DNA of 64,000 bases, from positions 26,765,201 to 26,829,200 of the forward strand of contig OX621249.1 of assembly GCA_951640165.1 (NCBI GenBank), in the 5' to 3' direction. Positions 1,328 to 60,421 of this stretch are shown here, one piece after another (positions within the stretch are counted from its first letter, which is position 1; each line of letters starts with the position of its first letter). Source of the DNA: Pseudoips prasinana (Eukaryota > Arthropoda > Insecta > Lepidoptera > Nolidae). Below the pieces are notes generated by a model that was not told where the DNA came from, did not search any database, and saw only the letters and a list, made by a program, of their open reading frames with translations. Both the position numbers and the translations under genes were made by a program.

Positions 1328-1349
1328 TCAGGATTATGTGCAGACTTAA
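1128..1349 (+). pseudogene. LINE ORF2 C-terminal fragment (zinc-binding tail)
   Basis: The fragment encodes a tail with the motif ICRTCGEENETMLHLI followed by a basic stretch. This matches the Cys/His region that follows the reverse transcriptase or RNase H domain in many insect Jockey-like non-LTR retrotransposons. No RT or endonuclease is present upstream, so it is a 5'-truncated copy, as usual for LINEs. The stop codon lies in the sequence repeated at the start of the next tandem unit. The family assignment is from memory of similar insect sequences. Confidence 0.6.
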
Positions 1350-35383: not shown

Positions 35384-36683
35384 CATGAGCTATATCATCA
35401 GCACGCCGAGGTTTACCTTGGCGAGCTAAAGAAAGAACAGCGTCGTTTTTGATCACATTCAAAAAGCTAATGATGTTCAGCTTTCCCGAATATGTTCTGT
35501 TTAATTTAGCGTTACTGCCTTCCACTGGGTTATTTGTTCTGTAGATATCCCCCCAAAAATCCCATTTGCCTCGATAATATTCGTTGTCAAGCCATGCCGA
35601 TACAAAATAGTCATTGAATTTCTCAATATTGAGAGTTTTCGGACAATCCTCCATTATATATAGCCATCCATCGCATTTAAGTTCAGGTGGTAGCAAAGCT
35701 AACGCTGTGCATAGAGCTATATGCTTTTTGAACATTCTCTTTTTATTTAACTTTAACGCCTTTGCTCTCTTCCAAAGTGCTTGACTAAAATGGAAGTAAC
35801 AGCCTTTGCATATTACATCCGGAAAGATGTTACGGATTGCGTTCATGGCTGCTTTCTCATAATCTGTTCTGAATGAAATCGGATGCCATTCTGGAATTTG
35901 CGATTTGATAAGAGCAAACGCAGTCTCATATGTGAACTCTTTTTTGTCCATTAATAAGATGTATATTAAGGGCACGACGTGAATTTTCTCACTTGTGCTG
36001 CCAAGGTCACCGTAAATCACATATAATTGTCTGAATGGTTTCACTACACACTTAAATGTACCATCTGCAAGGTAATGTTTCACGTGTTGATGAAGTCCTT
36101 TACTATTTACATCAGCGAAAGCTAATATCCTTGTTTTTCTGTACTCATAATCAAATAAAACAAAACTCATGTAACTTACTGGAATTTTTACTTCAAACGG
36201 CGTTTTAAATGTAGCTTTCTTTATTTGCTGGGCTTTGTTTCGAGCACTATACAAGCTGTTCTTAACATTCGATAATTCAGGTAATTTTTCTATCTTGTCA
36301 GTACCTTTGTCCAATAATTTTTTTATGCTTGAATTGAAGACAGAAGGAATCGATTTTCCTTCAGAAGATTTTGCTTCTTGCTTGCAGCGATGTATTTCTT
36401 CTTTGATGTCATTTCTTGCTATGCTGGGCGTACAAATGTCATGACGAAGAATTTTCGTCACATTATTATTTGAAGTCACCATTCCTCCATGACACCTTCT
36501 GTTCACACATCTCCAGACGATTGAGCTATTTTTGTTCTCTCGCTTTTTCGTATATTCGTAACCGGCATGCAAAATAATAGGCACACCTCTTTGTGATTCA
36601 ATAAAGGTTATCTCTTGGGATGTAGAAGCCAGACTGCAGCCAGTCTGAAGATCAGCTCGGGATGATGAAGCCACTGGCTCCAT
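35244..36683 (-). CDS. MULE transposase with FLYWCH finger, 479 aa
   Basis: The N-terminus carries a FLYWCH-type zinc finger (YEYTKKRENKNSSIVWRC ... CHGGM). The MULE catalytic domain follows: YLADGTFKCV (first Asp), FRTDYEKAAMNAI (second Asp), CKGCYFHFSQALW (C2H block) and NNPVEGSNAKLN (Glu). The ORF is complete and lies inside matched TIRs, so the enzyme may still work, although the element has been enlarged by the rosa insertion. The start at 36683 gives MEPVASSSRAD; no better start is seen. Confidence 0.9.
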   Translation of the reverse strand: MEPVASSSRADLQTGCSLASTSQEITFIESQRGVPIILHAGYEYTKKRENKNSSIVWRCVNRRCHGGMVTSNNNVTKILRHDICTPSIARNDIKEEIHRCKQEAKSSEGKSIPSVFNSSIKKLLDKGTDKIEKLPELSNVKNSLYSARNKAQQIKKATFKTPFEVKIPVSYMSFVLFDYEYRKTRILAFADVNSKGLHQHVKHYLADGTFKCVVKPFRQLYVIYGDLGSTSEKIHVVPLIYILLMDKKEFTYETAFALIKSQIPEWHPISFRTDYEKAAMNAIRNIFPDVICKGCYFHFSQALWKRAKALKLNKKRMFKKHIALCTALALLPPELKCDGWLYIMEDCPKTLNIEKFNDYFVSAWLDNEYYRGKWDFWGDIYRTNNPVEGSNAKLNRTYSGKLNIISFLNVIKNDAVLSLARQGKPRRADDIAHDKYRVTGNSTYSLQDVIVGLKCNKLSHQMFYRNSVVFELVRFLEFL

Positions 36684-40920: not shown

Positions 40921-41113
40921 ACAATAAAACTAATTCTCAATATCAGAATCATCAGATTCAGAATCCGATGAATCCAATTGAAAATAGTCTTCCTGAGTTT
41001 GTGGAGGTCTTGGTTGCAAGTCAGTACGCGAGTCAGGACGCGAGTGGTCGCGTTGTCTGTTTTAGGTGCTGGCTAGCACACACTTGACCGAAAACATTAA
41101 AACTCACACCATT

Positions 41114-42127
41114 ATGTCAACAAAGTGCGATGTGTGTAACAAAGTTATTACGAAAAATAAACCAGGACTTGAATGCCATCGATGTGAGAAAATAGTGCAT
41201 TTGACTAGTTCCTGTACAGGTCTAACGAGTAAACAACTTGCAGCCTTACGGGCCACCGAAAACCTTGAATGGACCTGTAAGGTATGTCAGCAGAGCTCAT
41301 ACAAACGTAGCTCAATTATACTTCAAAATGACGAAGATGATGAGGAGGACTACAATCTCGAAACACCTACAACACACATAGATATCAAGAAATTACTAGC
41401 TGATATTTCTAAGGAAATGGAGAAAACTATTAGAAGGGAAATGCAAGACATGAAGCAGTCCATGCAATTCCACACAGAGAAAATGGATGAGGTTCTCGCA
41501 AATCTAGAAAATATGCAGTCAAAAATCTCAAAACTACAGAATCAGAACGTTGAACTCACCAACAAAAATAATAATTTAGAATCGAGGGTAGGCGCGCTAG
41601 AACAACAGATACAAGAAATGGAACAAAGAAAACTTTCGAAGTTCATTGAAATACACAACATTCCATTTCTGGATACTGAAAATCCCCTTGAACTGGCGGG
41701 TATGGTAGCCCAAAAATTAAATCAAAGAACCGAAGACATTAAAGAAGCTAAGCGGTTGCCAGGCAGAAACAAGCAACCTGGCCCGGTCCAAGTGGAACTT
41801 ATTACCGAGGATAAACAAACGTCTTGGTGCGTCGCAAAGAAATCAAAAAATTCTAAAATAATCGTCTCTGATATCATATCGCCAGCTCCGGCTTTTACAG
41901 CTAATGATATAGTAATAGTATGTGAAGCTCTCACACCTAATAATAAATACCTACTATGGAACGCGAAACAAGAACTCAAAAATACATACAGATATATATG
42001 GATTAAGAAGGGTATACTACGCGTAAGAAAGGAGGGTGAAAATGAAAAAGCTTATATAATTCGTACAATGGAGGATATACATAAATTAAAGCCAAAATGC
42101 TCCTCCAACTCACCCTCACCGCATTGA
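41114..42127 (+). CDS. LINE ORF1 protein: PHD-like finger plus coiled coil
   Basis: It starts MSTKCDVCNKVITKNKPG and has a Cys4-His-Cys3-like finger (CDVC, CHRC, VHLTSSC, CKVC) over the first ~60 residues. An acidic stretch follows (NDEDDEEDY), then a long coiled coil (about residues 95-180, ISKLQNQNVELTNKNNN) and a C-terminal domain (KFIEIHNIPF onward). PHD-type ORF1 proteins are known from CR1-like LINEs; such proteins bind the element RNA. The start at 41114 is preferred over 41066 because the finger follows directly. Intact. Confidence 0.85.
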   Translation: MSTKCDVCNKVITKNKPGLECHRCEKIVHLTSSCTGLTSKQLAALRATENLEWTCKVCQQSSYKRSSIILQNDEDDEEDYNLETPTTHIDIKKLLADISKEMEKTIRREMQDMKQSMQFHTEKMDEVLANLENMQSKISKLQNQNVELTNKNNNLESRVGALEQQIQEMEQRKLSKFIEIHNIPFLDTENPLELAGMVAQKLNQRTEDIKEAKRLPGRNKQPGPVQVELITEDKQTSWCVAKKSKNSKIIVSDIISPAPAFTANDIVIVCEALTPNNKYLLWNAKQELKNTYRYIWIKKGILRVRKEGENEKAYIIRTMEDIHKLKPKCSSNSPSPH

Positions 42128-42182
42128 GTAGGTATATCCTTCATATTTCGAAAAACAATACAACATTTTGCTATTTACTATC

Positions 42183-45128
42183 ATGGATGTTATATTGGAT
42201 GATATCACCCAAATATCAGACTGTGAAAACTTAAAAATATTCTTGGCCAAGGTACCCAAAATAATAAGATTCTTATGTATTCATATGAACATTAGATCCC
42301 TGATAAAGAACTTCTCTGCACTTGAACTATGTATTGAGTCATCTTCACGAACTATTGATGTAATTATGTTAACTGAAGTGAACATCTCGGATGCCCTTAG
42401 CAGTATGTATCTTATAAAAGGATACAATATGTACGCGGAACTGCGGAAAAATAAAAAAGGAGGTGGCATACTAATATTTGTACACGAAAAACATAAATTT
42501 CACTTAAAAAAAATTAAAACTCTACACTGTGAAAGTCTAATTGGAACATTACATACACCTTCTAATTATTCCGCAGTCCTGTGTTGCATATATCGCCCAC
42601 CAAGTTCTAGTAAACACTTGTTTATAACAGAGATAGGCATGCTGCTTGGTAAAATCGATAAAAAACTGGATTTGTTATTGCTCGGAGACATCAACATAGA
42701 TTTAAAATGTAATAAGCCTGTAAAACATTTATATAACACCACTATGTATAACCACGGTCTAGCCTGTGGGATCAATGAATACACCCGAATAGAATTAAGT
42801 AACAACCGACTTTGTAAATCTTGCATTGATCATATTTATGCACGATCCCACACACTAGACCTTTACACAGCGGTACTCGGAACTGCACTGGCCGATCATC
42901 GTACGATTGTGCTTGCCGGAACCGAAACATTGAGTCGCTCCTCACGGGTGGATTTTAAATACACTACTCGCTATGATTATAGGACATTATTGGACACATT
43001 GAAACAAATCAATTGGAAACCGGCTTTTAAATTAGTTTGCCCCATAAAAATATATAACATCATATTAGAACACTTTAAGAAATGTTATGATAAAGCAAAA
43101 TTAAAGGTTCAAATTAAAACAAATCGCAATAAGATAAAAAACGAGTGGATTAATCCCAAAATTATTAATGCCTGCAAACATCGTGATAAACTATTCATGA
43201 CGTGGATATCGGATCCCACGAATAAAATTACTAGACGAAAATATGTTTCATCGAGAAACTATGCAAATAAATTAATAAACAATAGTAAAAATAAAACAAT
43301 TCAACAAAATATATTAAATAATAGAAATAACTTAAGAGTATTATGGCAAATTTTGAACGAAATTACCGGTAGGGCCAAGACCATTGCAGACGATGTTATT
43401 TTAAAAGCCCTCGTGAAAAATGGATATACGACTATGGATATTGCGAATAATTTTGCGGAAAACTTTTCTTCAAATATAAGTAAAACTGTCCTAAAATGTG
43501 ACACTCAACTTTTAAATAAAAGCGACTATTGTAAACCAGCCAAGGTTTCTTGTCGTTTCCAACAAGTTTCACCAAAAGCCGTTCTCAAAGAAATCAGATC
43601 TCTATCTTGTCTTAAGGCTCCAGGTATAGACGAAATCCGTGCAAAGGATGTAAAGTGTATCGGTACGGAGATTGCAGGAATAATAGCAAAATTTATCAAT
43701 ACATCAGTCAAACAGAGCAAATATCCTAAAGAACTCAAAATGGGGGTGATAAAGCCAATACATAAAAAGGGGTGCCATGAAAATTACGATAATTACCGAC
43801 CAATTACAATACTTCCTACGATTGATAAAATAGCAGAAAAAATAATAGCAAAACAATTCTATAGCTTTTACAAAGATAATAATATCATTACAGACAAACA
43901 ATTCGGATTTCAACCTGGTAAAAGCACAACCCAATTACTCTCCAAATTTACTAACACTATATTTAACCACCTCGATAACAAAAAGCATGTATTTGTTGTA
44001 TTCATAGATTACAGTAGGGCATTTGATACCCTTAAACATGACACTCTCATAGACAAGCTAAATGACTGTGGCATTCAGGGACCTTTGAGTGAATGGAGTA
44101 AAGACTATCTCATGGAAAGGTCATATGTGGTCAAAGTCGCCAACACGATAAGCAAAGAGGTAACAGTATCTGAAGGCACCGCACAAGGCTCAGTACTAGG
44201 ACCTCTTCACTATATATCCTACGTAAATGATGCTACCAATATTATAAAAAACTGTGAAATCTATCAATTCGCTGACGATACCTGCATTATATCAGCTGAT
44301 GAGAATATAGATAAAGCTTTTGATAACTTACAAGCTGACTTCACACTATTAGCTAAATGGTCACATGATGCCAACATGATTCTTAATTCCAATAAAACCA
44401 AACTTATGTACATAAGTTCGAGCCAAAACCGAAGAACATTCAACCGGAAACTAATAGCGCACTCTCACTTATGTCTACACACAAACGTATGTGACATCTC
44501 ATGTACACAAATAGAACGAGTAAGTAAACACAAATACCTGGGTCTCCTGATTGACGACAGACTCAAATGGAATGAACACATACACTATGTAAGCGACAAA
44601 TTAAGGGCAATTCTTGCAAAATTTCACCTAATAAAAACTAAGATCCCTTACACAACTCTCTTATACTTATATAAATCACTAGGTGAAAGCATTATCTACT
44701 ATGGTTTAAGCAGTTACGGCAGAACATTTAAATCTCATATGGATTCAATATACAAATTACAACTTAGAATAATGAAAGCTATAGTACCCCACCAAATAAA
44801 AAATAAATTTAAAGAAAACTATCGGAAACTCTTTCACCACTGTCAAATTATACCAATACACGATCGGGTCAAGTATGCCCTACTTATTGAAAACTACTTC
44901 CATCAGGACATACAACACGTGAAACACCACAATAAACAGACACGAAGCGCAAAATATAAAACTTTAACTTTACCTACATACAACAACTGGTATGGGAAAC
45001 AGATGATTGAGTACCAAATACCAAAGATAATCAATGACCTACCTTTAAATATTAAAAACCAAATTACTCAAAAAAACATGCACAAAAAATTTAAAGATTA
45101 CTTCTTGAACAATATTGCATTATACTAA
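42183..45128 (+). CDS. LINE ORF2 protein: endonuclease and reverse transcriptase
   Basis: N-terminal APE-like endonuclease motifs: HMNIRSLIKNF, VIMLTEVNI, LLLGDINIDLK and CIDHIYARS with DHRTIV. The RT domain follows: LKAPGIDEI, VIKPIHKKG, DNYRPITILP, VVFIDYSRAFDTL, GTAQGSVLGP and the catalytic IYQFADDT. No RNase H is seen, as usual for CR1. About 981 aa, no stop or frameshift, starting 56 nt after ORF1; the first in-frame Met (42168) is five codons upstream. Appears intact and possibly recently active. Confidence 0.92.
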   Translation: MDVILDDITQISDCENLKIFLAKVPKIIRFLCIHMNIRSLIKNFSALELCIESSSRTIDVIMLTEVNISDALSSMYLIKGYNMYAELRKNKKGGGILIFVHEKHKFHLKKIKTLHCESLIGTLHTPSNYSAVLCCIYRPPSSSKHLFITEIGMLLGKIDKKLDLLLLGDINIDLKCNKPVKHLYNTTMYNHGLACGINEYTRIELSNNRLCKSCIDHIYARSHTLDLYTAVLGTALADHRTIVLAGTETLSRSSRVDFKYTTRYDYRTLLDTLKQINWKPAFKLVCPIKIYNIILEHFKKCYDKAKLKVQIKTNRNKIKNEWINPKIINACKHRDKLFMTWISDPTNKITRRKYVSSRNYANKLINNSKNKTIQQNILNNRNNLRVLWQILNEITGRAKTIADDVILKALVKNGYTTMDIANNFAENFSSNISKTVLKCDTQLLNKSDYCKPAKVSCRFQQVSPKAVLKEIRSLSCLKAPGIDEIRAKDVKCIGTEIAGIIAKFINTSVKQSKYPKELKMGVIKPIHKKGCHENYDNYRPITILPTIDKIAEKIIAKQFYSFYKDNNIITDKQFGFQPGKSTTQLLSKFTNTIFNHLDNKKHVFVVFIDYSRAFDTLKHDTLIDKLNDCGIQGPLSEWSKDYLMERSYVVKVANTISKEVTVSEGTAQGSVLGPLHYISYVNDATNIIKNCEIYQFADDTCIISADENIDKAFDNLQADFTLLAKWSHDANMILNSNKTKLMYISSSQNRRTFNRKLIAHSHLCLHTNVCDISCTQIERVSKHKYLGLLIDDRLKWNEHIHYVSDKLRAILAKFHLIKTKIPYTTLLYLYKSLGESIIYYGLSSYGRTFKSHMDSIYKLQLRIMKAIVPHQIKNKFKENYRKLFHHCQIIPIHDRVKYALLIENYFHQDIQHVKHHNKQTRSAKYKTLTLPTYNNWYGKQMIEYQIPKIINDLPLNIKNQITQKNMHKKFKDYFLNNIALY

Positions 45129-47371
45129 AAGTCGGCCAGTGTGGTACCGCACACTGTTATCGCTTGAGCATTTATCCTACTCGTATAGCTGCGCTGCGGC
45201 AGGTACATAGTTGTAAGCCCGAGATGTTTACGAGTAGTAGTGGAACTTGTTTTATGGTGCGAGTTAGTTGGATGTATTATAGACTGTTAATGAGTTAATC
45301 ACGAATACTGGTGTACGGACACACCTGATTAGGTTTTTGATACACCGGGAACAACTTATGTAATTTTTATAATGATATAAATGGTTAATAATAAATAAAT
45401 AAAATGAAAAAATAAAAACTGGAGTCGAGGCTCTATAGTGGGAGCTACGATGAGCTTTAAGACCTCCGCGCACAATTTACTACTCTTTTTTTTCGGTATT
45501 TCCCGAAGGCTATTGATCAGAGGATCAGACGTTAAAATCAACATATTGAGCAAGTCTCTATTCGTGGCGAGACGAGAGCACTTTCTGGTGTTGTGCTCTC
45601 TAAACCTCCGGCAATCTTTATTTCTTGATTCTTGGGCTTCCTCTGAAAGTTGCCCTATTGGAACTATTGCCGTCTTAATCACTTCTGTACTGTGAATAAG
45701 CAATTTATGCACAGTAGCAGGCATGTAGTACCACGAGTAAAGGCTTAAATAAAGTCTTTTGGTCTCGTCACAAAGCTTTTTAAATTCAACAAGATTTATC
45801 TCGAAGCCACAAGCTAATGTCCTTAACAATACATCAAAGTGTTTGATGATTGTAACATCCAATCCTGTGATCTGAGCACTCAGTTCGGGATTCCCGAAAA
45901 AACGTCGAGCTGTGTTTCCATCATTTGTGGAACCAAATCCTGGCTTTGGCTTGTCCACAATTAGTCCCATTTCATGCTTGAATCGTTGTTTGATTTCGTC
46001 TGATCTTTGTTTTACACTTGCTTTTTCCTCTGAAGACCTAGCTTGCCATTTCTTAATGTCTAACTTATAACTAATGTGTAATAAGCACTCAAACGAACGA
46101 ATCCAAGCATGTAATGTTGACAAACCAAAGCCAAAATTATCCTGATTGCTATCAAAATGCTGTCCTTCATCATTCATCATTCTGGGAGTAGCCCCACAAA
46201 TATAGCATTTCTGCGATGAATGTGTCTCAGTCAAAGCGTTGCACACTTTTCCATCAGTCATAGTAAGAAGAAGCTTGTGTTTAATAGAAATTTTAGAACC
46301 ACCAAGATCACAAGATGTAGCCTCCAAGTTGTGTATTTGTTCCAAAACCTTATTTGTCTCGATTTTCGTCAATTCCGGGGTTTCTTTGGCAAAAATAAAT
46401 TTAATTGGACGACAATACATTGTCGATGATGGACGAGGATTTTGCCAGATACCCTCGTCAATTAATCTTAAAGGAACGAACGAATAAACAAAAAGGAACT
46501 CATCAGTGTTCTTCGCTGTTCTCAAATCTCTGTTTGTAAGCACTATGACCCGAACTTCCGTCACATCCCCATTTACTTATAAGAGTAAACGATGTGTTGG
46601 GAAGCACACTTGTGATAACTTCTCTCTGAGCTTCGACCAAACGCTCTGCTGTTTTATTCAAAATGGCTTGTAGCTCAATATCTGCTCGAGATTGTGTAAC
46701 ATCAATGTGCTCCTCTAAAGGATAACACAGTTTTTTTGATTTTACAATGCAATCATATGATGGAAATACGTGATGCCCAACTTTCATAGTCCACTTCCTA
46801 GTTTGTTTATATGAGTGGGTTGTTGATTTTGAATCAATATAATACGCTAATGCCTCGTCACTACTTAGCGGTCTATCAGTTTGCACAGCACTTGGTTGTT
46901 GAAGGCATGTACTGGCAGAAGATGGATTTTCGCCAATGTCCTTTATTACTCTGGCAACGTTTTTATATCCAGTGGACCGTGCAGCTACCTCTGCAGCAGT
47001 CATTAATTCTCCAACACTCCGCGATTCAACTAGATCAGCAACTTTACGTTTCTTAGTTTTAAAAGACGAATCTTCGAAAACTTTTTTAGGTCTTCCGGGT
47101 CGACAAAAATCAGCAGATGAAGTAGAAGGTTGTGGTTGAGTCGATCGTAAGCAGAATTCTATATTTTCGCCTTTCAGCCACAACTTATTCTTATTCAGGA
47201 AACGCTCTTTTGATTTTGCTGAAGACACCCACTTGGTTGCAATTTTCGAAGAAATGTTGGCTAATTTCATCTTAATTTCCCTTTGACATTTTTCAGTGAT
47301 ATCGGAGAAATCACACTTAGACAAAATAAATTGAAATAGACGATCATTTCTTTCGTCTTTTTCGTGCTTAA

Positions 47372-47575
47372 CCTCTTAAGTCCCGACATCAAAAAGATCA
47401 AAGTGTGAAATTGAACCTTGTTGATATCGAGTTACAAAAAATTATAAGAGGTTACGATGCCCCGTTAGTGGAACATCCTGGCCTACAGATGGTAGACCGT
47501 GTATAATTGATCAAAATGTTCTTTGCTGCGTTGCTGTCACGGTCAAACTCGCTGTTGCAGTTTGGGCAAACTCCC
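47372..47575 (-). ncRNA. Candidate guide (omega) RNA region at the Fanzor 3' end
   Basis: In characterised Fanzor systems the guide RNA scaffold overlaps the end of the ORF and the 3' non-coding end of the element, with the guide taken from the flanking DNA. Here that interval is the last ~40 codons, 80 nt after the stop, and the terminus. Position is the only evidence; I could not fold it reliably by eye. Transib 3 now separates it from the rest of the gene. Confidence 0.3.
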
Positions 47576-47580
47576 CAGCG

Positions 47581-48816
47581 CACTGTGATTCGCGTAGAAC
47601 AAACTAGCTGGACAAAAACAACTCTTCAATTCCTAATAGTTAATTATTAAGATGAACTCATTAGCCCTATACATTAAGGAATACATCTATTAATTTTCGT
47701 AATTACCCTCATTAGGCCCGTCATTAAGGTAAGTATATAAAGTGTTGATAATTCAAAGTGCATTCATTTGCATTTTTACACCATATTGTTAACATTATTT
47801 TAAGTCACTAAAAGAAATTTGTGATAGTGTTTTTGTGATGGATTGTGTACATAAGGGTAAGTAGTTTTGTTTTAGTTAATTTTTATCACAGGATCTTCAT
47901 TATTTAATTTTATTAAATTAAATGTTTCGATAAAAGTGGACTTTTTCACCCATATTTTTGAATTCAATAGTCAAAATATTACATGTCCACTCATGTCCAC
48001 TCTGTAAAATCTATTTTATATGATTCTCACAAGTATCTAGTAGTAATTAGTAGAAAAAAATATTGCGAATTATTTGCACAACTAATTTTTTTCTTTTTTT
48101 TTCTTTAAACAGTTTTCACCGTCTCAAAAATGGACTTTTTTGAAGAATGGCTAAAACACCCGAAGGAAACGCGAAACGTGGAGCTCTTTCGGTTTATATC
48201 TTTGAGACATGACTTTGATGGTGTTACGGAGCAGTCCCTGAGAGACGTCAAGGTCATCATCTCAAAATATTCTTCAAAATTGGCTGAAAAGTGGAGCAGC
48301 TGTGCAAGAAATAGCAGCTGTGCAAAGAATAGCTACGAATAGAGATTTACTTAATATGTTATTGATAACATCTGACCCTGTAATAAATGGTTTAAGAGAA
48401 ATTCCCCGGAAGAAAATAGGTTCATTCCCTATCGAAGTCCTAGATTTATTAGTTCAACCTAGCTTTAAGGAACAAAATGTTAATATAGTTTCTAGTTTTC
48501 ATAGTTCTGCCACTCATGATCATGACTATTCAATGGATGATTCATCTGATGATAGTGATGATGAGTGATCGATTTAGTTTTTAAGTAGGTATTTTATGTA
48601 TCTGATATTAGATTTTATAGTTACATTTATAGTTAAATTTATTTATAAAATTGTTTAAAAAAATATTGTGTTTTTATTTCACTATACCTGCTCAAACGAC
48701 CAATGGACCTCAAATAGTATTATGACCCTTATATCTTTGCTTAATAACCTCATTTATAAATAAAAATCGAAACAAATAATATTGTCCAGCTAGCTTGTTC
48801 TACACGAACCACTGTG
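47581..48816 (+). mobile_element. Transib 3, internal-deletion derivative, TSD CAGCG
   Basis: The ends are CACTGTGATTCGCGTAGAAC (47581) and inward from the right CACAGTGGTTCGTGTAGAAC (ending 48816), flanked by CAGCG (47576-47580 and 48817-48821). At 1,236 bp it retains only the two ends of the transposase gene. The termini are related to those of Transib 2, so the latter's enzyme may have moved it. It sits in the Fanzor gene. Confidence 0.93.
47838..48568 (+). pseudogene. Transib transposase 3, N- and C-terminal ends joined by deletion
   Basis: Exon 1 is 47838-47856 (MDCVHK plus one base, GTAAGT donor). Exon 2 starts at 48113 and continues FTVSKMDFFEEWLKHPKETRN to about 48300, then after a deletion of the whole catalytic core and a frame change gives IATNRDLLNMLLITSDPVING and an acidic tail (MDDSSDDSDDE, stop 48568). 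The two-exon plan with a tiny first exon matches Transib 2. No catalytic residues remain. Confidence 0.85.
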
Positions 48817-50393
48817 CAGCGTAGTCGATGATTCATGACAATCTTATGAAACTGTCCTGTTGTAGCGTTGCACGAAGAACACGCCTGCGAGGTATACTGT
48901 TCATCTACGACCTCTACATCAATGTTGGGCTTACTCCGTAGACGTTTGATGAGCGAGTCGTGTTTAAACTTGCGACCGCTGAAAGAAGCCTTGTTCATGA
49001 ATGAACTTCCAGCACCATACAACACTAGTGTGTTGGAACTATCGTCAAATATTTCCTTGATTATTTTTTCTTCACATTTAGCTGTACGGATATACTTGTC
49101 TAGTTTCAAGCGTGTGAGTTTGGCGTGTCTCTCATACGGTTCCTGGCGCACGTTGAACCAATGCATTCTAAAAACAGTGTATTCCACGACATGAGTAGCG
49201 TTCTTCGAGGAAACGGGAAAATCCAACTTTTCACGAGCCTTTTTTTCGGCCTCCTCGCTGACTCGACACAATTTGTTTCTGACTCGTGCACGCTTCCACT
49301 CCAATGTATGCGATCTCACGTATTTTTTTGTCACACGTTGAAACTTGAACCTGCGCGATTCCACCGCAGCAACAGGAATTATAGAGCCGGGATCAACAGC
49401 GATGATACGATCATAACTCTTTTTGGAGCGTTTTGGTGATTGTACCATAGTAAGCTCCTTTTTGATTCGATTCATTGATAGACTCACACTAAAGCCGTCT
49501 GTTTGTAGGCTACATCCAAATTTTTTCATGTCAACGTCTAACCAAGGAGCCCATAGTTCTCGTCGATGATCTTCAATTCTAGGCCAATTGCCTGTAATAG
49601 CTTTTGGATATACACGTCGCAATAGTTCGTGCCAACCTCTCGATGTGTAAGTGATGTGTTTGAGCCCATGTGATGGTTGTGGAAAAAGTCGAAAGTCTTC
49701 GAGTTTTGCCTGAATTTTGAGCCATTCAGGTATGGTAGACCACCACTTGGTACCTCCGACAGTGTCCACGTTGATAATAGAACAAACACGACGCATCTCT
49801 TCATTGTCGTCGGGTAGTATCTTCTTGAAAAACGCAGAAAACAATGCTGGATCGTTACGTTTCACGTTGAAATAGCGGGCCAGCCTAGAATAGGCATGTG
49901 TACTAACGTTTGTATGTAGTACGGTCTCGTACTGTTTTGCCATCTCTTGAACCACAAAAGAGCGAAGTTTGTCGTCAAACTTCCTCTCACCAAACATGGT
50001 AGAATATGCGTTAGTATAGGGTCCTTTTCCTTTCATGGCATAGATGAAATTCAACACGTCCGGTTTAGGTGGAAGTTGCGTGCTCGTCTTCATATAATAA
50101 TTGTACCAAACACCCAGTTCGATATAGACCCGTGAGAGATCGCGAACATCCCGTCGAATTTCTGTCAAAAGTTTGAGTTTTTTCTCTGGAGCCAATAGCG
50201 GACAAAGGCAGGAAACAAGTCCTCGTTTGACAGTATAAATTTCTAGTTGATTTGCTTTTGATTCACTCAAATGCCTCTTTCTTATGGACGGTAAATAGTT
50301 TTTACATTTTTTTGAACTTGTTCGTGTATGGTCCGAACCACCACACGTCTTGCACACCACCATCCTACTAATGGAAATGAGGGATGAAAGAGG

Positions 50394-50401
50394 GCTTATA
50401 T
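50394..50401 (-). promoter_or_regulatory. TATA box of the Fanzor gene
   Basis: TATATAAG on the minus strand lies 31-38 bp upstream of the ATG at 50363, inside the element. The 5' leader would be very short. It suggests the element brings its own promoter. Confidence 0.55.
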
Positions 50402-50621
50402 AGGGATAAGTGTACCCGGGGGTCTAAAAGTCCACAAAAAACAATAAAGTTCAAATTTTTTTATTTTCAATGTTCTTTATATATGACATTGGGACTTAGG
50501 AGGTTAAGCCACTCTTCAAAAAACTCTATTTTACTAATAGACTCAGTTATTTCTACAAAAAAAGAAAAAAAATGTTGTACTCAAGTGTGCTACATAAAAT
50601 AGGTCACATAATAGTCTATAG

Positions 50622-50900
50622 GCATGTAGTTAAAACATATCAAAAATTTAGAGTGGGTACAAGAGGATACATGTTTTTTCTAAGCCTGATAAGTTCGAAA
50701 ACAAAGAAAAACATGGTAATATTTTAAGTAGGTATTCAGAGATAGTCTACTTTATGAATGTGCATGTAGTTAAAACATATCAAAAATTTAGAGTGGGTAC
50801 AAGAGGATACATGTTTTTTCTAAGCCTGATAAGTTCGAAAACAAAGAAAAACATGGTAATATTTTAAGTAGGTATTCAGAGATAGTCTACTTTATGAATG
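50622..50900. repeat. 140-bp tandem duplication in Transib 2 intron 1
   Basis: Two head-to-tail copies (50622-50761 and 50762-50900) are essentially identical over their length, starting GCATGTAGTTAAAACATATC and ending CTACTTTATGAATG. The near-identity points to a recent local duplication. Confidence 0.9.
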
Positions 50901-51175
50901 TTTATAACGCATTAAAAGATTCTAATAAGGAAATAATATTTAACATACCTTCAGAAGTAAAATCCATCACTAAAACTTTTCACAAAATTAGAACTACCAC
51001 CATGAGATGTTAGGCCTCTTTTCCATTACACGGTTGTTCAAACGTACGGTGTGTAAGCCGTACGGTTGAAAAAACGTGCTAGCTTGTACATGATACGGCA
51101 AAATCACCGCGCGAGACATTGGTAAGTACTGGCTAGTAGCGCTTTTTACTCGGGCTGTGTAGGACGTGCTGCGTC

Positions 51176-53449
51176 ATGAATTTTCTTACGAAAAAAAAGA
51201 TTATAGTTGCTTATTACATATATAGGAAAAAGAAAATAGAAAAAAAAAGGGAAGTAAGGTTTTGGATACATCCGATTTTAGAAAAAAGGGAGGAATATGG
51301 CGCGTTTCATACACTTGTCAAGAATCAATTGAGAGAAGATGAAGACAAGTTTTACAATTATTTTAGAATGCAGAAAACTACATTCGACAACTTGCTCCAA
51401 AAATTATCCCAGGAACTAAAACATCAAGATACTTTTATGCGAGAGAGTATATCGCCCGCAGAAAGATTGGCTGTAACTCTGAGGTAAGTAGGTACAAAAT
51501 TAAATGACATATTTTAGTTTAAAATTGTTTATTGCACACAAACAAAATTATTACATGTAATTGAATTTTAATAATTATTAATTTAAGAACAAGTAAATCA
51601 AAAAATACACTACGCTGAAAATGCTACTCAAGTGCGGTACTAAAATCGAATTCGTCTTCAATAGAAACTTGAGAATCTGCCGAGATACTTTCCGCATTTA
51701 CACTATGTACAGATAATTGTGATTCGGGTCGGTAGTGGATTGGCTCTAAACCAGAACCGTGTCCAAAATCATGAGAAGACGTCTGTGGACGACTTATTCC
51801 ATAGCCCGATCTAGCAGCTGTAGAATATCCATATGTTGACGATTGCGCATTTGAGGATGCTGTACCACTTAAATATCCTTGATGGCCTTGATCCCATTGG
51901 TTTCTTGATGTAGGTATATACTGAGTACACTGTCTTTGTTGAATATTTTTAATTATTGAAATTACTTGAAACTGAAAGTCTATCATATTTTCATCACTGA
52001 ACTTGTCAACTGTATCAGCGATTCCCATAAAAAAGTTCATACTACGGCTTTTCTTTTTCTCATCTCGTTCTGCTGAATCCATAAACTTCATAAACCTAAT
52101 GTCAACTTCACTTAGTTCATTTTTTCTTTTTTTTTTAGCCCTTTGCGTCTCTCTCCGTTCAGTGTATCCCGAGCTTGATTGATTCGGGACTGCACTATCA
52201 AAATTTTCATTACTGAGGCTAGAATCATGAACATGTTCAGTCATGTTAGAATCGGTCTTGCGATGCTCAACATTTTTTTTTAGGAACATCATTTCATCAT
52301 AGAACATATATTTTCTTATTTTTTTTTGCTGAAGAACCAGACTTACATTCATTAATTTTTTTGTCATATTTTATCCAGCTATCTTTCATATTGGTCCACT
52401 TCCTCATCACCATTTGCCCTGAAAATAAATAAATAATAATTATTAAATTCAAAATTTATAAAAACCCCCGACCTAAACTGAATCGACCCCGACCTAAAAT
52501 GGGGTTTTAGTATTTGAACCTGAACCGTTTTGTTTTATATTTCAGGTATCTAGCAACAGGAGATACCTTTACTGACCTATACTACAGCTATAGAATTGGA
52601 ATAAAAACCATAAGTTGCATCGTACGTGAAGTATGCCACTACATTTGGTTAGAACTGTATAAAGAATATATGAAAATGCCATCTAAAGAAGACTGGCTAC
52701 ACATTGCAAGCAAATTTCAAGAATCTTCCAACTTCCCGCTGTGCTTAGGAGCGGTCGATGGAAAACACATCAGACTTATTAAGCCAATTGATAGTGGCTC
52801 GATGTTTTTAAATTACAAACATTTTTTTTCTATAGTTTTGATGGCAGTAGTAGATAGCGATTACAACTTTATATTTGTTGACGTTGGCGCCTACGGAAAG
52901 GAGTGTGATTCCAGTGTGTTTAAAGAGACCCCATTTTGGAAAAATTTAACAAACAACGGATTAAATCTACCCGATGCAACACGTTTGCCTGGAATTGACT
53001 ACGATTTGCCATATGTGTTCGTTGCGGACGAAGCCTTTGCTTTGCATTATCACTTGCTTCGTCCATTTGGTGGTCATCAGCTTGATCAATTAAAACGTAC
53101 ATTTAACTACAGACTCACCAGAGCGCGAAGATTTGTTGAATGTGCGTTTGGCATTTTATCCAATAAATGGCGAATTTTTCACCGGCCAATGAATGTGTCC
53201 ATCGATTTGGCAGTTGATATTGTGAAAACATGTTGTGTTTTGCAAAATTTTATACATAAGCAGGAAAACTTTCAGTTTCACAATGCGAGTGAAAATGAGT
53301 CCACCCTTGATTCAGAATCGGAACTAATCCAGTTACCTATCACGAATGCAGTTCGCGGAAGTTTGGCGGCTAATGAAGTTCGCAACAGATTTGCACAATA
53401 TTTTGTATCTAACGAAGGTCGCCTCTCCTATCAAAACAACTATGCATAA
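51176..53449 (+). CDS. Harbinger transposase (DDE_4), two exons, 403 aa, intact
   Basis: Exon 1 (51176-51483) encodes MNFLTKKKIIVAYYIYRKK ... RFWIHPILEKRE ... FYNYFRMQKTTFDNLL and ends AG|GTAAGT. Exon 2 (52546-53449) follows TTTCAG. The join makes 404 codons with stop. The catalytic triad is in LCLGAVDGKHIRL (Asp), VFVADEAFALHYH (Asp) and RFVECAFGILSNKWRIF (Glu). These enzymes cut at TTA-type sites and require a Myb/SANT-like partner. The ~1.06-kb intron contains the last exon of that partner, antisense. Confidence 0.94.
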
Positions 53450-54724: not shown

Positions 54725-57700
54725 TAGTCCGGTCTATTTACACATTCAAGTTTACATAAATTCCCATAAAGCTGAATATTGGCATAGTTGTTCAAAACAT
54801 CATTATAAAGAAAATCTCAAAAGTCCTCATCGTTCCGAGGTGTGCTAAAAATTTGGCACGGGGTCAAAGGTCAAAAAAATGAGTTTTTTGCGATTTTTAG
54901 CGAAACGGTGAGTTTTTTCGCAAAATTACCCCAGTACAAAATTGTAGATCACAAAATTCTCTACAAAAAATATATCAATAATTTTTTTCCTAAAAGCCAC
55001 CATTTTGGAGATATAACGTTCCGAAAAGTTGGATCAGTCGTAATCCCTCTATTTTGCACACGTTTCCACGCCACCTATGAGGTAGTGTACAAAGCGCGTT
55101 TTTTTTAACGTGGTTTCCCCAGTAGGCCTATTCCACGGGTCTGCTGAGATTTTATATGTTTTAAAACTATTGCAAAATAATATTATATATTATAGTGGGC
55201 AAAAACAACGGCGGTGTAATTAAATAAAATACTTAAAATAAAAAGTTAGTCGTCTGATTCATAACTGTCCAAGATTTCTGTTTCTTCTTCTTCTTGATCT
55301 TCTTCTCCTTCTTCTTCCTGTTCATCCTCTTGTTCTTCTTCTTCTTCTTGTTCTATTTCACACGTAAACTGCCCCAATAGCGATTCCTGATCGGTATCAA
55401 ACGAATCTTCAAGAGTTGGTGACTCAACATTCGAGCATGATCGGCCTTGACAGTGTGTGCATGCCAGGGAACAAAACAGTCCAACTTTTCTGCAACCACA
55501 TTTTGCACTACACCCTTTCTTGCAGTTGCAAAATATTGTGTTGAGAAGTTTCTCAGGTGCTGGTGGAAGTAAAGTTTGAACTGGCTCTAGTGTATTGTCG
55601 ATCAACTTCCAACCCCAGTCTTTAGGGTCCAGCTGATTACCAAGCCACACTTGAACTTGGTAATATACCCGAAACAGATGTTGATGAGCAGCTACTGAGG
55701 TTGGAGGAAGAGAAGCTAAGTTGACTTGTTTTTTATTACGCGTATTTTTCACGAAAGATGTGTATCGCAACTTATCTAAGCAAGTGGTTTTTTTGGGGGC
55801 TCCGTACATAGCAAGAAGAAATTGAACTCCGTTGGTGATAACATGTTGTTGAGTTGAATTACTATTTTTAAAAACTTCAGCACATTGTAGTAAATCTTTT
55901 TTTTCAAACATTTTGAAAACTGTTGTTTTTCCTCTCCTGTAAAAAGCAGATGTCGTATCGCAGCCAGTTATTGCGTGTAGAAACAATACATGATTTTGAC
56001 ATTTAGGAAAATTGGATAAACTGTTTGATGAATATATTTCCGATTGATTTTGGGCTTTTCCGGGTTTAAAAAAATAAATAATTTTTTCAGTTGGAGTTCG
56101 AGCAGTAAGCAAGACGAGTAAATCAACATCCTCACCAACAACAACAGTTGTATTTGTCACACTGAATTTCTTTATCGCTGTTTCAATAATCAATACATCA
56201 GCATCATCATTAGCTTGTTCAACGGATATATTCTCAGCAGTAAATTTTGCTTTCAACATCGAAATAAACCTAGATTTATTGTGATTATTTGCAAAGAATT
56301 TCTGTTGACTGGTAGGAACTGTCATTGATTCATCGAATATAATATCAGAAGAAGTTGATGAAGCAGCATTTCGACGGCGTTGCTCTGCTGCTTTAATATT
56401 TCTCGTATAATCATCATATCCGTCAAATACGACAGTAACTCTGGAACCAAAATGTCGACGTACATATTGAACGTATTTATCTAAGATAACGTTAAATGTT
56501 TCCTCGCTATCCCACACCACTCGATGTAATAAGAATCCTCCGTCAATTATGTACGTTGAATTAGTGTTATTAATATCAACATTTATAGTCTGAAAACAAT
56601 CGTAAATAGCCGACTTCTGGGTCTTGCGCATTCCAATGTCATCAAATAATGTTAACGGATAAGGAGCTAATTCATACTCGAAATATTTCTCAATTTCATC
56701 TTGAAAAGCCGCAGTAACACTCATACGTTGGAATAATAACACTGGGTCAACAGGTACTTTTTCTTCGTGAACTTTTACGGTGCTACTCATAGCTAAAAGA
56801 GGAACAACTTTGTCAGCGCGTTTAAGTTTAATATCTTTAAATGTCAGTCCAGTTATTTTAGCAATAGAGATAAGCCCAAGTTCACGTGCTTTATAGCAAT
56901 TAATTGTATTATCACCAACGACACCACTTGCAATCGAGATGACTTTGTTAACCTCTGGGAAAGGATCATGAATCGAGAACCACTCAAGAAGCATTCGTAT
57001 GTCTTTAGCGTCTTTTTTTACACGTGAATCACTGGCATCAACATGCTGTTCAGTCGTATCCATCCTAACATTAGCAAGATCTTCTAATTTCTCACAAACT
57101 GTGTTCATTGCATGCATGCTGTAAACCCATTTACTGATTACACTTTGTTTTGTACTTCTTCCTCGAGCAATACCTCCATCTGTCTTCATGGCTTTCATCA
57201 TAGACTGTTCGATAACCATGTCTGTAGAAGTTCCACAACTCAATTTATCTGAGCGTCTCACGGTGAAAAATCCTTCGGTAAATTTTTCGTAAACTTCAGG
57301 ATCCATCGAGTCCTGTAATTGCATCATGTCTTGTAAATACAAGTGTGCAGATTTAGCATATGGAAAATGTCCTGACGAGTGGAAATAAGGTAACATTTCT
57401 TTTACACAACTTAAATGAGCTTTCCAGTCCCCCATACGCTCAGCTCTCAAAAATTCTTTTGCAAGTGAAACCATATTAAAATATTGTATCCAAAGTTGCG
57501 CTGTTGGTCCTCGTTCCTCAAAATCTTTCAATTTCATATTAAATTTATGAAGTAAAGCACCTGATACTTCATTATCATTTTCAATATCTGAATATGAAAG
57601 AGTGCTATCTAATATATGGTCAATATTTATGATTAAATCTGCTCCCATGATATCATTAATATCTATTGTTTTTAATATTGTAATTGCTAAAGCCAGCTGG

Positions 57701-60421
57701 AGTAGTGTATGTGCTCGAACAGCTCTTGCGTAAGCATGACCATTGAGCATTTTTTCTAATGACTTTGGTGCATAGATTTCTGAGAGTACTTCTTTTATCC
57801 CGCTACCTTGCATAATATAACCAATTGCTCCGAGATAAGACATGAGTAGATGAAATCCTCCAAGTCTGACAATAATCTTCGATACTTCAGAGCCGTCAGG
57901 TGCGGCTGATACAATTTCTCGAGCTTTCGCATACAAGGGTTGGTCGAAAGTCACGATGCATACAGTGTGGCCGTAACGTTTCGCGTTCTCTAATGCACAA
58001 AGTAAAGTCGTATAGACAGTATTATAGTTACTAGCTGGTTGATGGATGAATGGTAAAAATGTAATCTGAGATTTTGAATAATTTGTATGGTAATTTGTTA
58101 AGCGCTCAATAAAACCGTTCCAACCAGGTAATGATGTATTTTTCCACTTTCCATAAAACCATACTACATCAGAATTTTTATGAAAAGATACTGTTTCAGT
58201 TCCATATCCAAAATCTTGGACATATATTTTACTGTAACCAACTACATCACTATTCTGATAGATCTGTATTGGCACATGAGCTTTTGCTTTGAAGTGTTTT
58301 GCTGAAAGAACTTCTTTTATTCGTTGCATAGGTTCTTCTAGTAAAACAGAGTGCTTTGGAGTTACAATTTGAATTATACCCATTATGTGGAGTGAATTGT
58401 TACCATCTAGCGTATTAACATTTATATCAGCATTATCTGCAACGTATTGAATAAGTGTGCCACTTTCAGGTGGTAGGACATGAGGAAGAGGATGAAAAAC
58501 TGCTGCTGACTCGTACATCAATGTATCATTATAAGAAGCACACAAACCAAAAGACGACAAAATTTGTATAAGACGCTTAGACCCGAACCTCCGATGAAAA
58601 AAAACTGAAAGACCTAACTGTAATTTGGACTTGAACGATCTTGGTCGAATAGCAGTCATGATACTATGACAAATATTGGTGCATACTAGTTTTAAATGAT
58701 CGAAATTTGATCGTTTATTTTTTAAGATCATTTGCTCCAAAAAAAATGTCAGTGACTGTGGGATGTCATTATTTAAATCTTCAAACATTCGACCTGGTGG
58801 AGGGTAGTAGGAATTATCAAATACCAAGGATTGAATATCTTCTCGAATAATAGATGCTGCTGCTTCTAGAGTTTTTAATCGTTCTTCTTGTTTATTAATT
58901 TTTTTATTTTCGGACCAAGATTGATTTAAAATTTCATGGTGACTGTTTATCAAACATACAAATGTTAACGCTCCCGGTTTTTCAGTGATAATAATTTTAT
59001 CGCCATATTTCAGTTTAAGTCGCAGCTTAATAGTCCTGTTATCTAAAGTTAAAATTTTGCTAACATCTTTTAACTCAGCCAAAGTAAACTGACAGTCATT
59101 GCTACTCTCAATGTATGTAAATATTTCCTGCATTGCCAGATCTGTTGCTTCATCTTTAGGACGACCAACTGTACCGCCAGTAGTCGGTTTCAAAAAAGAA
59201 GTATAACATTCTTGGTGATACTTTGCTTCAGCAGCAACTAAATCATAGTCAAATTCGATTCGAGCAACAACAGCTTTCGATATAGCATCGGAACGAGTTC
59301 GTGCTACTTCCAAAATTGAATGTTTGAATTGGAGTGTACTTACTTGACAAATTTTACTGCGACGATCTAAGGATTTTTTTCTCTGCAACTCTTCATTCAA
59401 TTTATTGCCACAAAATAAACATAGTTTTTTAAAACAAAAATCTGATACACTTGAACGGGATCTAGTACGAAGAGGACTACTTACTGTAGATCCTGTAGAT
59501 GTGTTAGCTTCTTGTTCTTCGCGTTTTCTTTTGATGGCAGCAGCAATAGAACACTTCCGCGTATAAATTTTACGACAGTTGCTATGTATTGTCACAGATT
59601 TTTGTTTTTTAAGAAATTCCGAGTATCCATCATCTCTTTCAGCACTTGCATTAATCAGTGTCTTCATACCACGATCAACAGTTACAGTTTCACTTTCAGT
59701 TAAAAGATGAGTACAAATAAAACAATATTCTGACATTTTTCTTATAAAAATCTAAAACGCACAAAATAGGTTAAAAGATAGGTTAAGATAAGCACATGTT
59801 TTCCCTACGCAGTGGCGCTCAAGACTAACGGTATGTATTTCATATATTGGGCATGCCAACATAAAGCAGGTATACGACCCTAGCCACGCGGACAATAGAA
59901 TAAAAGACAGATGTTATCCCAAGGTTATACTGACGTACAAATTTAGGAACGGGGTTTCATTATACCTGAGATTCTCGTAGTTTAACTTATATTTTACATA
60001 AGCAAGTTACAATAAATAATAGCGAACTTATTTTAGTTCTATTACACCTTTAGTGACTTTCATATGTGGCGTACGTGTGCAAAATAGAGGGATTACGACT
60101 GATCCAACTTTTCGGAACGTTATATCTCCAAAATGGTGGCTTTTAGGAAAAAAATTATTAATATATTTTTTGTAGAGAATTTCGTGATCTACAATTTTGT
60201 ACTGGGGTAATTTTGCGAAAAAACTCACCGTTTCGCTAAAAATCGCAAAAAACTCATTTTTTTGACCTTTGACCCCGTGCCAAATTTTTAGCACACCTCG
60301 GAACGATGAGGACTTTTGAGATTTTCTTTATAATGATGTTTTGAACAACTATGCCAATATTCAGCTTTATGGGAATTTATGTAACCTTCCTCCTGATTTT
60401 AGGCTTAAATAGACCGGACTA
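54725..60421 (-). mobile_element. DNA transposon with ~350-bp TIRs, putative Academ-type, TSD TAC
   Basis: Inverted arms run 54725 to about 55080 and about 60062 to 60421; both start TAGTCCGGTCTATTTA from the outside. The right arm carries ~14 extra bases near the tip. TAC flanks the element (54722-54724 and 60422-60424). A single 4.5-kb gene fills the interior. A 3-bp TSD, long TIRs and a nuclease-containing giant protein fit what I recall of the Academ superfamily; that name is inference. Confidence 0.8.
55246..59736 (-). CDS. Giant transposon protein: putative DDE region, FEN/XPG-like nuclease, CXC zinc domain, 1,496 aa
   Basis: One uninterrupted ORF. The N-terminus (1-200) has Cys pairs (YCFICTHLL, LCLFCGNKL). 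The central region has acidic motifs that could be transposase residues (YVADNADIN; CIVTFDQPLYAKA) and the blocks RLGGFHLLMSYLGAIG and EMLPYFHSSGHFPYAK known to me only from uncharacterised animal proteins. Residues ~1062-1270 look like a FEN1/XPG-type nuclease: YIIDGGFLL, VVFDGYDD, NDDADVLI, VGEDVDLLVLL and ITGCDTTSAF carry the expected Asp/Glu. A Tesmin/TSO1-like CXC region (CNCKKGCSAKCGCRK) spans ~1392-1425, then a Glu-rich acidic tail. Intact ORF with TIRs on both sides implies recent activity. Domain calls are by eye. Confidence 0.8.
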   Translation of the reverse strand: MSEYCFICTHLLTESETVTVDRGMKTLINASAERDDGYSEFLKKQKSVTIHSNCRKIYTRKCSIAAAIKRKREEQEANTSTGSTVSSPLRTRSRSSVSDFCFKKLCLFCGNKLNEELQRKKSLDRRSKICQVSTLQFKHSILEVARTRSDAISKAVVARIEFDYDLVAAEAKYHQECYTSFLKPTTGGTVGRPKDEATDLAMQEIFTYIESSNDCQFTLAELKDVSKILTLDNRTIKLRLKLKYGDKIIITEKPGALTFVCLINSHHEILNQSWSENKKINKQEERLKTLEAAASIIREDIQSLVFDNSYYPPPGRMFEDLNNDIPQSLTFFLEQMILKNKRSNFDHLKLVCTNICHSIMTAIRPRSFKSKLQLGLSVFFHRRFGSKRLIQILSSFGLCASYNDTLMYESAAVFHPLPHVLPPESGTLIQYVADNADINVNTLDGNNSLHIMGIIQIVTPKHSVLLEEPMQRIKEVLSAKHFKAKAHVPIQIYQNSDVVGYSKIYVQDFGYGTETVSFHKNSDVVWFYGKWKNTSLPGWNGFIERLTNYHTNYSKSQITFLPFIHQPASNYNTVYTTLLCALENAKRYGHTVCIVTFDQPLYAKAREIVSAAPDGSEVSKIIVRLGGFHLLMSYLGAIGYIMQGSGIKEVLSEIYAPKSLEKMLNGHAYARAVRAHTLLQLALAITILKTIDINDIMGADLIINIDHILDSTLSYSDIENDNEVSGALLHKFNMKLKDFEERGPTAQLWIQYFNMVSLAKEFLRAERMGDWKAHLSCVKEMLPYFHSSGHFPYAKSAHLYLQDMMQLQDSMDPEVYEKFTEGFFTVRRSDKLSCGTSTDMVIEQSMMKAMKTDGGIARGRSTKQSVISKWVYSMHAMNTVCEKLEDLANVRMDTTEQHVDASDSRVKKDAKDIRMLLEWFSIHDPFPEVNKVISIASGVVGDNTINCYKARELGLISIAKITGLTFKDIKLKRADKVVPLLAMSSTVKVHEEKVPVDPVLLFQRMSVTAAFQDEIEKYFEYELAPYPLTLFDDIGMRKTQKSAIYDCFQTINVDINNTNSTYIIDGGFLLHRVVWDSEETFNVILDKYVQYVRRHFGSRVTVVFDGYDDYTRNIKAAEQRRRNAASSTSSDIIFDESMTVPTSQQKFFANNHNKSRFISMLKAKFTAENISVEQANDDADVLIIETAIKKFSVTNTTVVVGEDVDLLVLLTARTPTEKIIYFFKPGKAQNQSEIYSSNSLSNFPKCQNHVLFLHAITGCDTTSAFYRRGKTTVFKMFEKKDLLQCAEVFKNSNSTQQHVITNGVQFLLAMYGAPKKTTCLDKLRYTSFVKNTRNKKQVNLASLPPTSVAAHQHLFRVYYQVQVWLGNQLDPKDWGWKLIDNTLEPVQTLLPPAPEKLLNTIFCNCKKGCSAKCGCRKVGLFCSLACTHCQGRSCSNVESPTLEDSFDTDQESLLGQFTCEIEQEEEEEQEDEQEEEGEEDQEEEETEILDSYESDD

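Follow-up and report, generated by a model that had tools for sequence, protein, structure and literature searches.

The locus described here raises the question of how a transposon that carries a Fanzor gene, encoding a nuclease of the RNA-guided, CRISPR-like kind, and no transposase of its own has been moved in a moth genome. It lies in Pseudoips prasinana (Lepidoptera; Nolidae), on contig OX621249.1 of assembly GCA_951640165.1, positions 26,765,201 to 26,829,200; this whole stretch of 64,000 nucleotides is termed the window, and coordinates refer to it unless stated otherwise. An earlier note, made from the sequence of the stretch alone, had proposed that the element was mobilized in trans by a TTAA-specific enzyme. 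Comparing the element and its termini across the genome, we consider it highly probable that it is a non-autonomous Fanzor1 transposon with a guide-RNA scaffold at its 3' end, moved in trans by a piggyBac lineage that would recognize CCTCNTAAGNCCC-type termini and leave 4-bp, TA-centred target site duplications (TSDs). The element and its terminal inverted repeats (TIRs) are as follows.

47372..50503, minus strand: the whole Fanzor element, delimited by its TIRs and by seven complete genomic copies, the window copy included.
47372..47384, plus strand: TIR at the 3' end of the Fanzor gene, CCTCTTAAGTCCC, identical in the other six complete copies.
50491..50503, minus strand: TIR at the 5' end of the Fanzor gene, CCTCCTAAGTCCC, as read in the complete copies.
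47368..47371, no strand: TSD TTAA, one of five sequences among the seven copies, placed with the aid of empty sites.
50504..50507, no strand: TSD TTAA on the opposite side, compared across the copies.

Within the window by itself, the terminus pattern has little statistical weight (two matches, both exact, against 0.94 in shuffled sequences at up to two mismatches). Across the 1.13-Gb assembly of 56 contigs, the exact pattern CCTCYTAAGTCCC was found at 33 sites, against 8 for the reversed control. Fourteen of these sites are the paired ends of seven complete Fanzor elements, namely the window copy, C3, C13, C19, C22, and two on C30, and one belongs to a partial copy, C9; four more are at L035, L038, L039, and L041, and the remaining 14 lie in no assigned element. 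The matched TIRs that had been noticed in the window are thereby confirmed as termini common to all complete copies. The uninterrupted element is approximately 1.89 kb long (1,865-1,891 bp in the five sisters that lack a nested insert), whereas the window copy measures 3,132 bp and C3 3,181 bp. The latter carries a separate insert of 1,290 bp about 20 bp from the 5' end, and the edge of that insert resembles a mariner end in L035.

A Transib gene surrounds the window copy (see below for the details), and three Transib copies without the Fanzor element were fetched as 801-bp pieces. In all three, one TTAA stands at the junction, and their alignments across it were identical at 483 of 496, 481 of 496, and 425 of 483 aligned bases. 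Because these empty copies align across a single TTAA, the boundaries of the Fanzor element and its TSD are fixed.

The seven complete copies are each flanked by the same 4 bp on both sides, always with TA at the centre. Read in gene orientation, the TSDs of the window copy, C3, C13, C19, C22, and the two copies on C30 are TTAA, TTAT, ATAT, TTAA, ATAA, GTAT, and ATAT, respectively. The TTAA reported on both flanks of the window copy is thus real, and a TTAA-specific enzyme would account for it and for the same TSD in C19; short TIRs starting with CC are piggyBac-like as well (PMC2872659), and piggyBac has been described as TTAA-specific (PMC7351741). The other five copies, however, have identical flanks of TTAT, ATAA, GTAT, or, in two cases, ATAT, and these speak against such an enzyme unless a different one moved those copies. 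Since TTAA makes up 11% of the TA-centred 4-mers in the window (TA frequency, 0.083), two TTAA sites out of seven show neither a TTAA rule nor a clear preference, and we regard a TTAA-specific enzyme as exceedingly unlikely. Of the earlier proposal, movement in trans is retained as the best reading and the TTAA specificity is abandoned; the further copies that it called for share the termini and boundaries but not the target sequence. The base before the TSD is C, T, T, T, T, A, and C in the seven copies, and no longer motif upstream of the TSD is claimed.

What, then, could move the element? The same genome contains elements of the piggyBac superfamily with termini similar to those of the Fanzor element, mostly beside TA-centred 4-mers. 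L044 has an open frame of 631 codons (Pfam DDE_Tnp_1_7, 6.1e-59) between two CCTCGTAAGGCCC ends flanked by ATAT on both sides, and L045 has an open frame of 609 codons between CCTCCTAAGACCC and CCTCCTAAGACCT, again with ATAT on both sides. L048, with a frame of 639 codons, possesses ends of the same type and the flanks ATAA and ATAT. The protein closest to the L044 transposase comes from Parnassius mnemosyne, with 86% identity across 84% of the query; many of the other named matches are lepidopteran. Exact Fanzor-type termini adjoin decayed piggyBac remnants at L035, L038, and L039. A DDE_Tnp_1_7 transposase was found between ends of this type in L044 and L045 with open frames, in L048, and as remnants in these three loci. 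L035 links the two end types, since one of its ends is CCTCCTAAGTCCC and the other CCTCGTAAGGCCC. L041 has no piggyBac match; its end is 94% shared with that of L038, and ATAA stands on both sides.

We then searched the genome with the pattern CCTCSTAAGRCCC, chosen after the ends of L044 and L045 had been read, and detected 33 sites (14 for the reversed control). Nineteen of them have one of 41 piggyBac matches no more than 4 kb away, where approximately 0.01 would be expected by chance; the 41 matches that entered this count came from 150 scored among 766 candidates, and three of the 19 sites, those of L035, L044, and L045, were known beforehand. The flanks of these 19 ends have a TA centre in 15 cases and are TTAA in one. 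The polarity of the ends agrees as well: at its 5' end the Fanzor element (CCTCCTAAGTCCCAATGT) is similar to L035 (CCTCCTAAGTCCCAAAGT) and L044 (CCTCGTAAGGCCCAATGA) at theirs, and its 3' end (CCTCTTAAGTCCCGACAT) is like the L038 end that lies beside the 3' part of the transposase (CCTCCTAAGTCCCGACGT). An old decayed Fanzor, L020, ends in CCTCCTAAGACCC and CCTCCTAAGATTC with ATAA on both sides. The polarity and the L020 ends fit a Fanzor gene in the place of the transposase between piggyBac ends. We propose that the Fanzor gene probably replaced the transposase there, and that a piggyBac-superfamily transposase lineage recognizing CCTCNTAAGNCCC-type ends would move the element in trans and duplicate 4 bp centred on TA. 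The Fanzor element itself contains no transposase, as the earlier note had supposed, and its class proved to be Fanzor1.

Several observations weigh against this proposal. No intact transposase with exactly the CCTCYTAAGTCCC termini was found in the genome; the elements at L035, L038, and L039 have decayed, and in the intact ones one or two of the 13 terminus positions are different. The transposase that the earlier note suggested looking for was hence found with similar ends (L044, L045) and not, in intact form, with the exact ones. Among the 18 exact sites outside complete or partial Fanzor copies, 15 had no piggyBac match (six were examined over 3 kb only) and 14 belong to no assigned element, to be compared with the 8 matches of the reversed control. 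The TA centre is absent in 4 of the 19 piggyBac-adjacent ends. In the eight transposase-linked elements with both ends read, the duplications are unequal in five (C2, C13, C33, L048, and L035) and equal in three (C1, C23, and L045); the two flanks of the transposase-linked C13 and of L048 differ by one letter. The TTAA that defines targets of the piggyBac superfamily is found in only 2 of the 7 Fanzor copies and 1 of the 19 piggyBac-adjacent ends, the transposase-bearing elements departing from it too. Finally, the relaxed target is shared with another piggyBac family, whose CCCTTTCAGACCT ends have TTAA in 20 of 39 cases (Fisher's test against 1 of 19, p 0.0005, the ends not being independent); beside the transposase, TTAA was seen at only one of seven CCCTTTCAGACCT ends and the other six were non-TTAA, whereas TTAA stands at 19 of the 32 remaining CCCTTTCAGACCT ends. 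We dropped the idea that a relaxed target is special to the Fanzor-carrier lineage, as this second family is also mostly non-TTAA beside its transposases. One member of the CCCTTTCAGACCT family, L046 (G000:C25:3412700-3416900, element at 868-4120), has a 608-codon frame and CTAT on both sides. Several of the piggyBac families in this genome may share TA-centred targets without a preference for TTAA. Because the second family behaves likewise, such a target does not in itself point to the Fanzor carrier; judging from the terminal sequences, the shared termini do.

The 4-bp, AT-rich TSDs would also agree with another DDE superfamily such as Sola2, the carrier of Fanzor1 in Dictyostelium with AWWT TSDs, and Fanzor1 in Sola2 elements has been described (PMC3627910). 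However, GTAT, TTAT, and TTAA do not match AWWT, and it is piggyBac transposases that are enclosed by the same type of termini. Judged from the TSDs and the termini, a carrier of this sort appears quite unlikely. Natural insertions and a domesticated enzyme offer parallels for a piggyBac lineage with TA-centred targets. CsuPLE1, a piggyBac of Chilo suppressalis, has 13-bp inverted terminal repeats and four of 21 sites at CTAT, ATAT, ATAT, and CTAA (PMC4273485); it differs in having TTAA at 17 of 21 sites, and Fanzor is not mentioned in the available portion of that report. The piggyBac-derived PiggyMac of Paramecium cuts DNA with a 4-base stagger at sites in which only the central TA is conserved (PMC3408717), but is a domesticated enzyme of DNA elimination and no mobile element.

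The identity of the protein was examined with the gene as divided by a nested insert.

48822..50363, minus strand: Fanzor1 coding sequence up to the nested insert, with ATG at 50363; the RuvC-I Asp (DPG), the RuvC-II Glu (VVDEQ), and the first CxxC are kept.
47452..47580, minus strand: severed 3' part of the Fanzor gene with the second CxxC, DRD, and the C-terminus, outside the window open reading frame (ORF) and placed by alignment with intact copies.

The Fanzor-like minus-strand frame with DPG and VVDEQYTSQ was confirmed. Its length had been given as 556 codons, which is true of the intact sisters C3, C13, and C22; the window frame has 537 codons from the ATG, the final ones supplied by the nested element. 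Because the insert splits the zinc ribbon, neither the second CxxC nor the RuvC-III Asp is left in the window ORF. The zinc ribbon claimed for the window copy is thus only half present, and PF07282 scored below the cut-off (22.4 vs 26.3 bits). In C22 and C13 the domain is well above it (2.5e-13 and 2.9e-13; 50.4 and 50.2 bits), and the C4 zinc ribbon and the RD of RuvC-III (CPNC...DRD) are complete in C3, C13, and C22.

Fifteen Fanzor homologues were identified among 6,530 candidates. D324, G326, and E488, i.e., the RuvC-I Asp with its Gly and the Glu of VVDEQ, are invariant across 12 aligned proteins including that of the window; which Glu is relocated is taken from PMC10711439 and the earlier note. 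Single-sequence phmmer with the window protein gave no match in PDB, whereas the top PDB match of the 12-sequence profile was SpuFz1 (E 2.3e-6). The model of P0003, the viral homologue with 80% identity (mean pLDDT 73.4, pTM 0.60), retrieved Fanzors at all of ranks 1-7 in Foldseek (E 1.5e-15 to 1.9e-11; TM-score 0.47-0.55 by query). SpuFz1, in the element Spu-1, is the best PDB match by both profile and fold and is likewise carried by a Fanzor-only TIR element (Saito et al., 2023, PMC10432273), for which no transposase with its inverted repeats was reported; it differs in putative TA TSDs (PMC3627910) and in sharing only 16-18% identity with P0003. Altogether, these comparisons show that the window element encodes Fanzor1, a real member of the family, and that this gene copy is broken.

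The closest named homologue of the window Fanzor is a Mamestra configurata nucleopolyhedrovirus (MacoNPV) protein (80% identical), followed by granulovirus proteins (62%, HaGV) and ascovirus hr1/hr5 proteins (50-51%, HvAV-3f/3g hr1). In a tree that contains no Fanzor2 or TnpB sequences, the window Fanzor grouped with one unnamed sequence, then with MacoNPV (100/100), and then with the granulovirus proteins (89/89). Such affinities might suggest that the copies are remnants of integrated large DNA viruses of insects and form no endogenous transposon family. Yet every complete copy stops exactly at the TIRs with a TSD of its own, the window copy lies inside a Transib gene, and the viral copies are themselves described as TIR/TSD elements (PMC3627910). 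Judged from the ends of the copies, their TSDs, and the Transib context of the window copy, a viral remnant is very unlikely in our view; the Fanzor element may well pass from moths to their viruses and back. The viral elements HVav-1, SFav-1, PUgv-1, HAgv-1, and HAmn-1 (Bao and Jurka, 2013, PMC3627910) belong to the same protein family by similarity and carry only Fanzor, with 13-bp TIRs and 4-bp TSDs, the latter given as TTAN. The copies reported here differ from them in residing in a eukaryotic genome, in their more varied TSDs, and in that a transposase superfamily can be proposed. Scans of viral contigs with P0001, P0005, and P0010 confirmed no relative.

A protein search of the genome gave 15 Fanzor-matching stretches. 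The copies fall into two subfamilies, with identities of 99.4-99.8% within and 98.2-98.5% between them (gaps ignored), and the comparison of C22 with C13 indicates purifying selection on the coding sequence between the two (ratio of non-synonymous to synonymous rates, 0.08; 21 synonymous and 6 non-synonymous changes). The C9 copy (L031) is 95-96% identical by frame pieces and shares sites of the second subfamily; its first approximately 70 bp are swapped for unrelated sequence and its 3' end is intact. It was excluded from the seven-copy counts.

The earlier note had overlooked both the nested insert and the Transib gene around the Fanzor element.

47581..48816, no strand: nested Transib-like non-autonomous element with inverted ends of about 36 nt, CACTGTG / CACAGTG, in which one piece reads MDFFEEWLKHPKE...
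47576..47580, no strand: 5-bp TSD CAGCG of the nested element.
48817..48821, no strand: 5-bp TSD CAGCG on the opposite side.
45356..47324, minus strand: main part of the host Transib (RAG1-like) gene in two overlapping frames, from Pfam RAG1 and the empty copies.
50508..50534, minus strand: codons of the interrupted Transib gene beyond the element (IEFFEEWL), from the joined flanks and the empty copies.

Transib elements have 5-bp TSDs and ends of the CACxxTG type. The nested element, 1,236 bp long with 36-nt inverted ends (89% complementary), has CAGCG on both sides and the ends CACTGTG / CACAGTG; its only RAG1-like coding is the piece MDFFEEWLKHPKETRNVELF, similar to the N-terminus of the interrupted host Transib gene. 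For the host gene, Pfam RAG1 matched the frame 45356-46564 (3.3e-7) and gave no match in the frame 46503-47324. Joined without the element, the flanks read through as IEFFEEWL-KHEKDERNDRLF. The Fanzor element sits inside the Transib gene. It entered that gene at a TTAA, and a short Transib-like element later inserted into the Fanzor gene and broke it. A second RAG1/Transib-like frame (709 aa) was noted at 5708-7837 on the minus strand, with a weak Pfam RAG1 match (1.5e-4, 20.5 bits, cut-off 25).

The 3' end of the element is a candidate for the source of a guide RNA (reRNA).

47372..47512, minus strand: candidate guide-RNA scaffold, the last ~140 nt with three predicted stems and the TIR in the terminal stem, as folded from the C22 copy.
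47352..47367, minus strand: predicted guide segment GCACGAAAAAGACGAA, directly outside the TSD, its position following PMC10711439.

In the clade of Fanzors of lepidopterans and their viruses, to which the Fanzor1 of SfAV belongs, the RNA is reported to have three stems, to include the TIR and TSD in its scaffold, and to run on for about 15 nt beyond the TSD (Yoon et al., 2023, PMC10711439). Our guide assignment follows from that report of an RNA reaching past the TSD; expression of the RNA was shown for SfAV Fanzor1, whereas the present case is one of folding only. The window copy has the same last 206 bp as the folded C22 copy. Over the last 213 bp before the TSD, the seven copies have no variable site, against 39 in the rest of the element (uniform-placement p 0.009, or 0.007 counting two TSD columns, for a stretch picked on the basis of the data). 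In the genome, the 206-bp 3' end has 10 matches, i.e., eight copies at 100%, with C19 one base short, and two old relatives, and no further guide-only loci were found among them. The ~140-nt end with the TSD folded at -45.5 kcal/mol (z -5.58), and none of 200 shuffles was as good. Such an invariant, strongly folding 3' end behaves as a guide-RNA scaffold would; RNA guidance of this Fanzor is inferred. Rfam at gathering thresholds gave no match within 47300-50600. The TIRs of the old relatives L019 and L020 likewise pair upstream; the helices differ, and covariation support for the TIR pairing is not claimed.

The window TSD with its 16-nt guide has 42 exact genomic sites including itself (41 others) and five more at one mismatch. 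At up to three mismatches there were 131 sites against 93 for the reversed control, and only exact or near-exact sites are thus counted. All three exact sites sampled were copies of the Transib sequence. The C3 guide, the only other one searched, had a single exact site (its own) and 12 sites at up to two mismatches, against 21 for the reversed control; two guides are not enough for a rule. It is a speculative and rather unlikely idea that landing in a multi-copy Transib gene turned the guide RNA of this copy against a rival transposon, with an intact Fanzor of a sister copy loading it in trans and the Transib-like breaker representing a counter-strike or a tolerated loss, and that Fanzor1 elements in general become guided against whatever repeat they enter. 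Repeats are frequently hit by insertions, and a nuclease that cut dozens of sites might do harm instead of good.

Other DNA transposons are abundant in the window, with DDE_Tnp_4 at 52514-53449 (plus strand), hAT at 21185-22915 (minus strand), MULE/FLYWCH at 35244-36683 (minus strand), and a piggyBac fragment at 25164-25526. A retrotransposon of the long interspersed nuclear element type occupies 41066-45128 (plus strand), with a Baculovirus FP domain in ORF1 (Pfam 1.7e-17) and a reverse transcriptase in ORF2 (2.8e-33). An exact 140-bp tandem duplication at 50622-50901 adjoins the 5' end of the Fanzor element. For the open frame at 55246-59736 (minus strand; 1,496 aa), whose C-terminal part is rich in cysteine, Pfam gave nothing at E 0.05-0.1.

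Within Fanzor1, the clade of lepidopterans and their viruses has been reported to branch off early (PMC10711439). Its carrier was left unassigned or unknown (PMC3627910, PMC10711439), and Yoon et al. (2023, PMC10711439) called the transposon family of SfAV Fanzor1 unknown. Our literature search, which is not a full literature check, returned no report of a piggyBac carrier for Fanzor, and the TIR strings gave matches on human cancer only, by title. As far as this search shows, the proposed assignment of the carrier to piggyBac is the new part. If true, it names the carrier of the insect Fanzor branch, and a single transposase with a single reporter suffices to test mobilization. It would also require the guide-RNA system to cope with a duplication of variable, TA-centred sequence where the scaffold meets the guide. 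TA-centred targeting by natural piggyBac relatives would echo, outside ciliates, the rule followed by PiggyMac in Paramecium. The aid to persistence suggested earlier would be a putative benefit of the Fanzor to its element, and the seven young complete copies, three of them with intact genes, provide a system in which to ask whether Fanzor helps its transposon.

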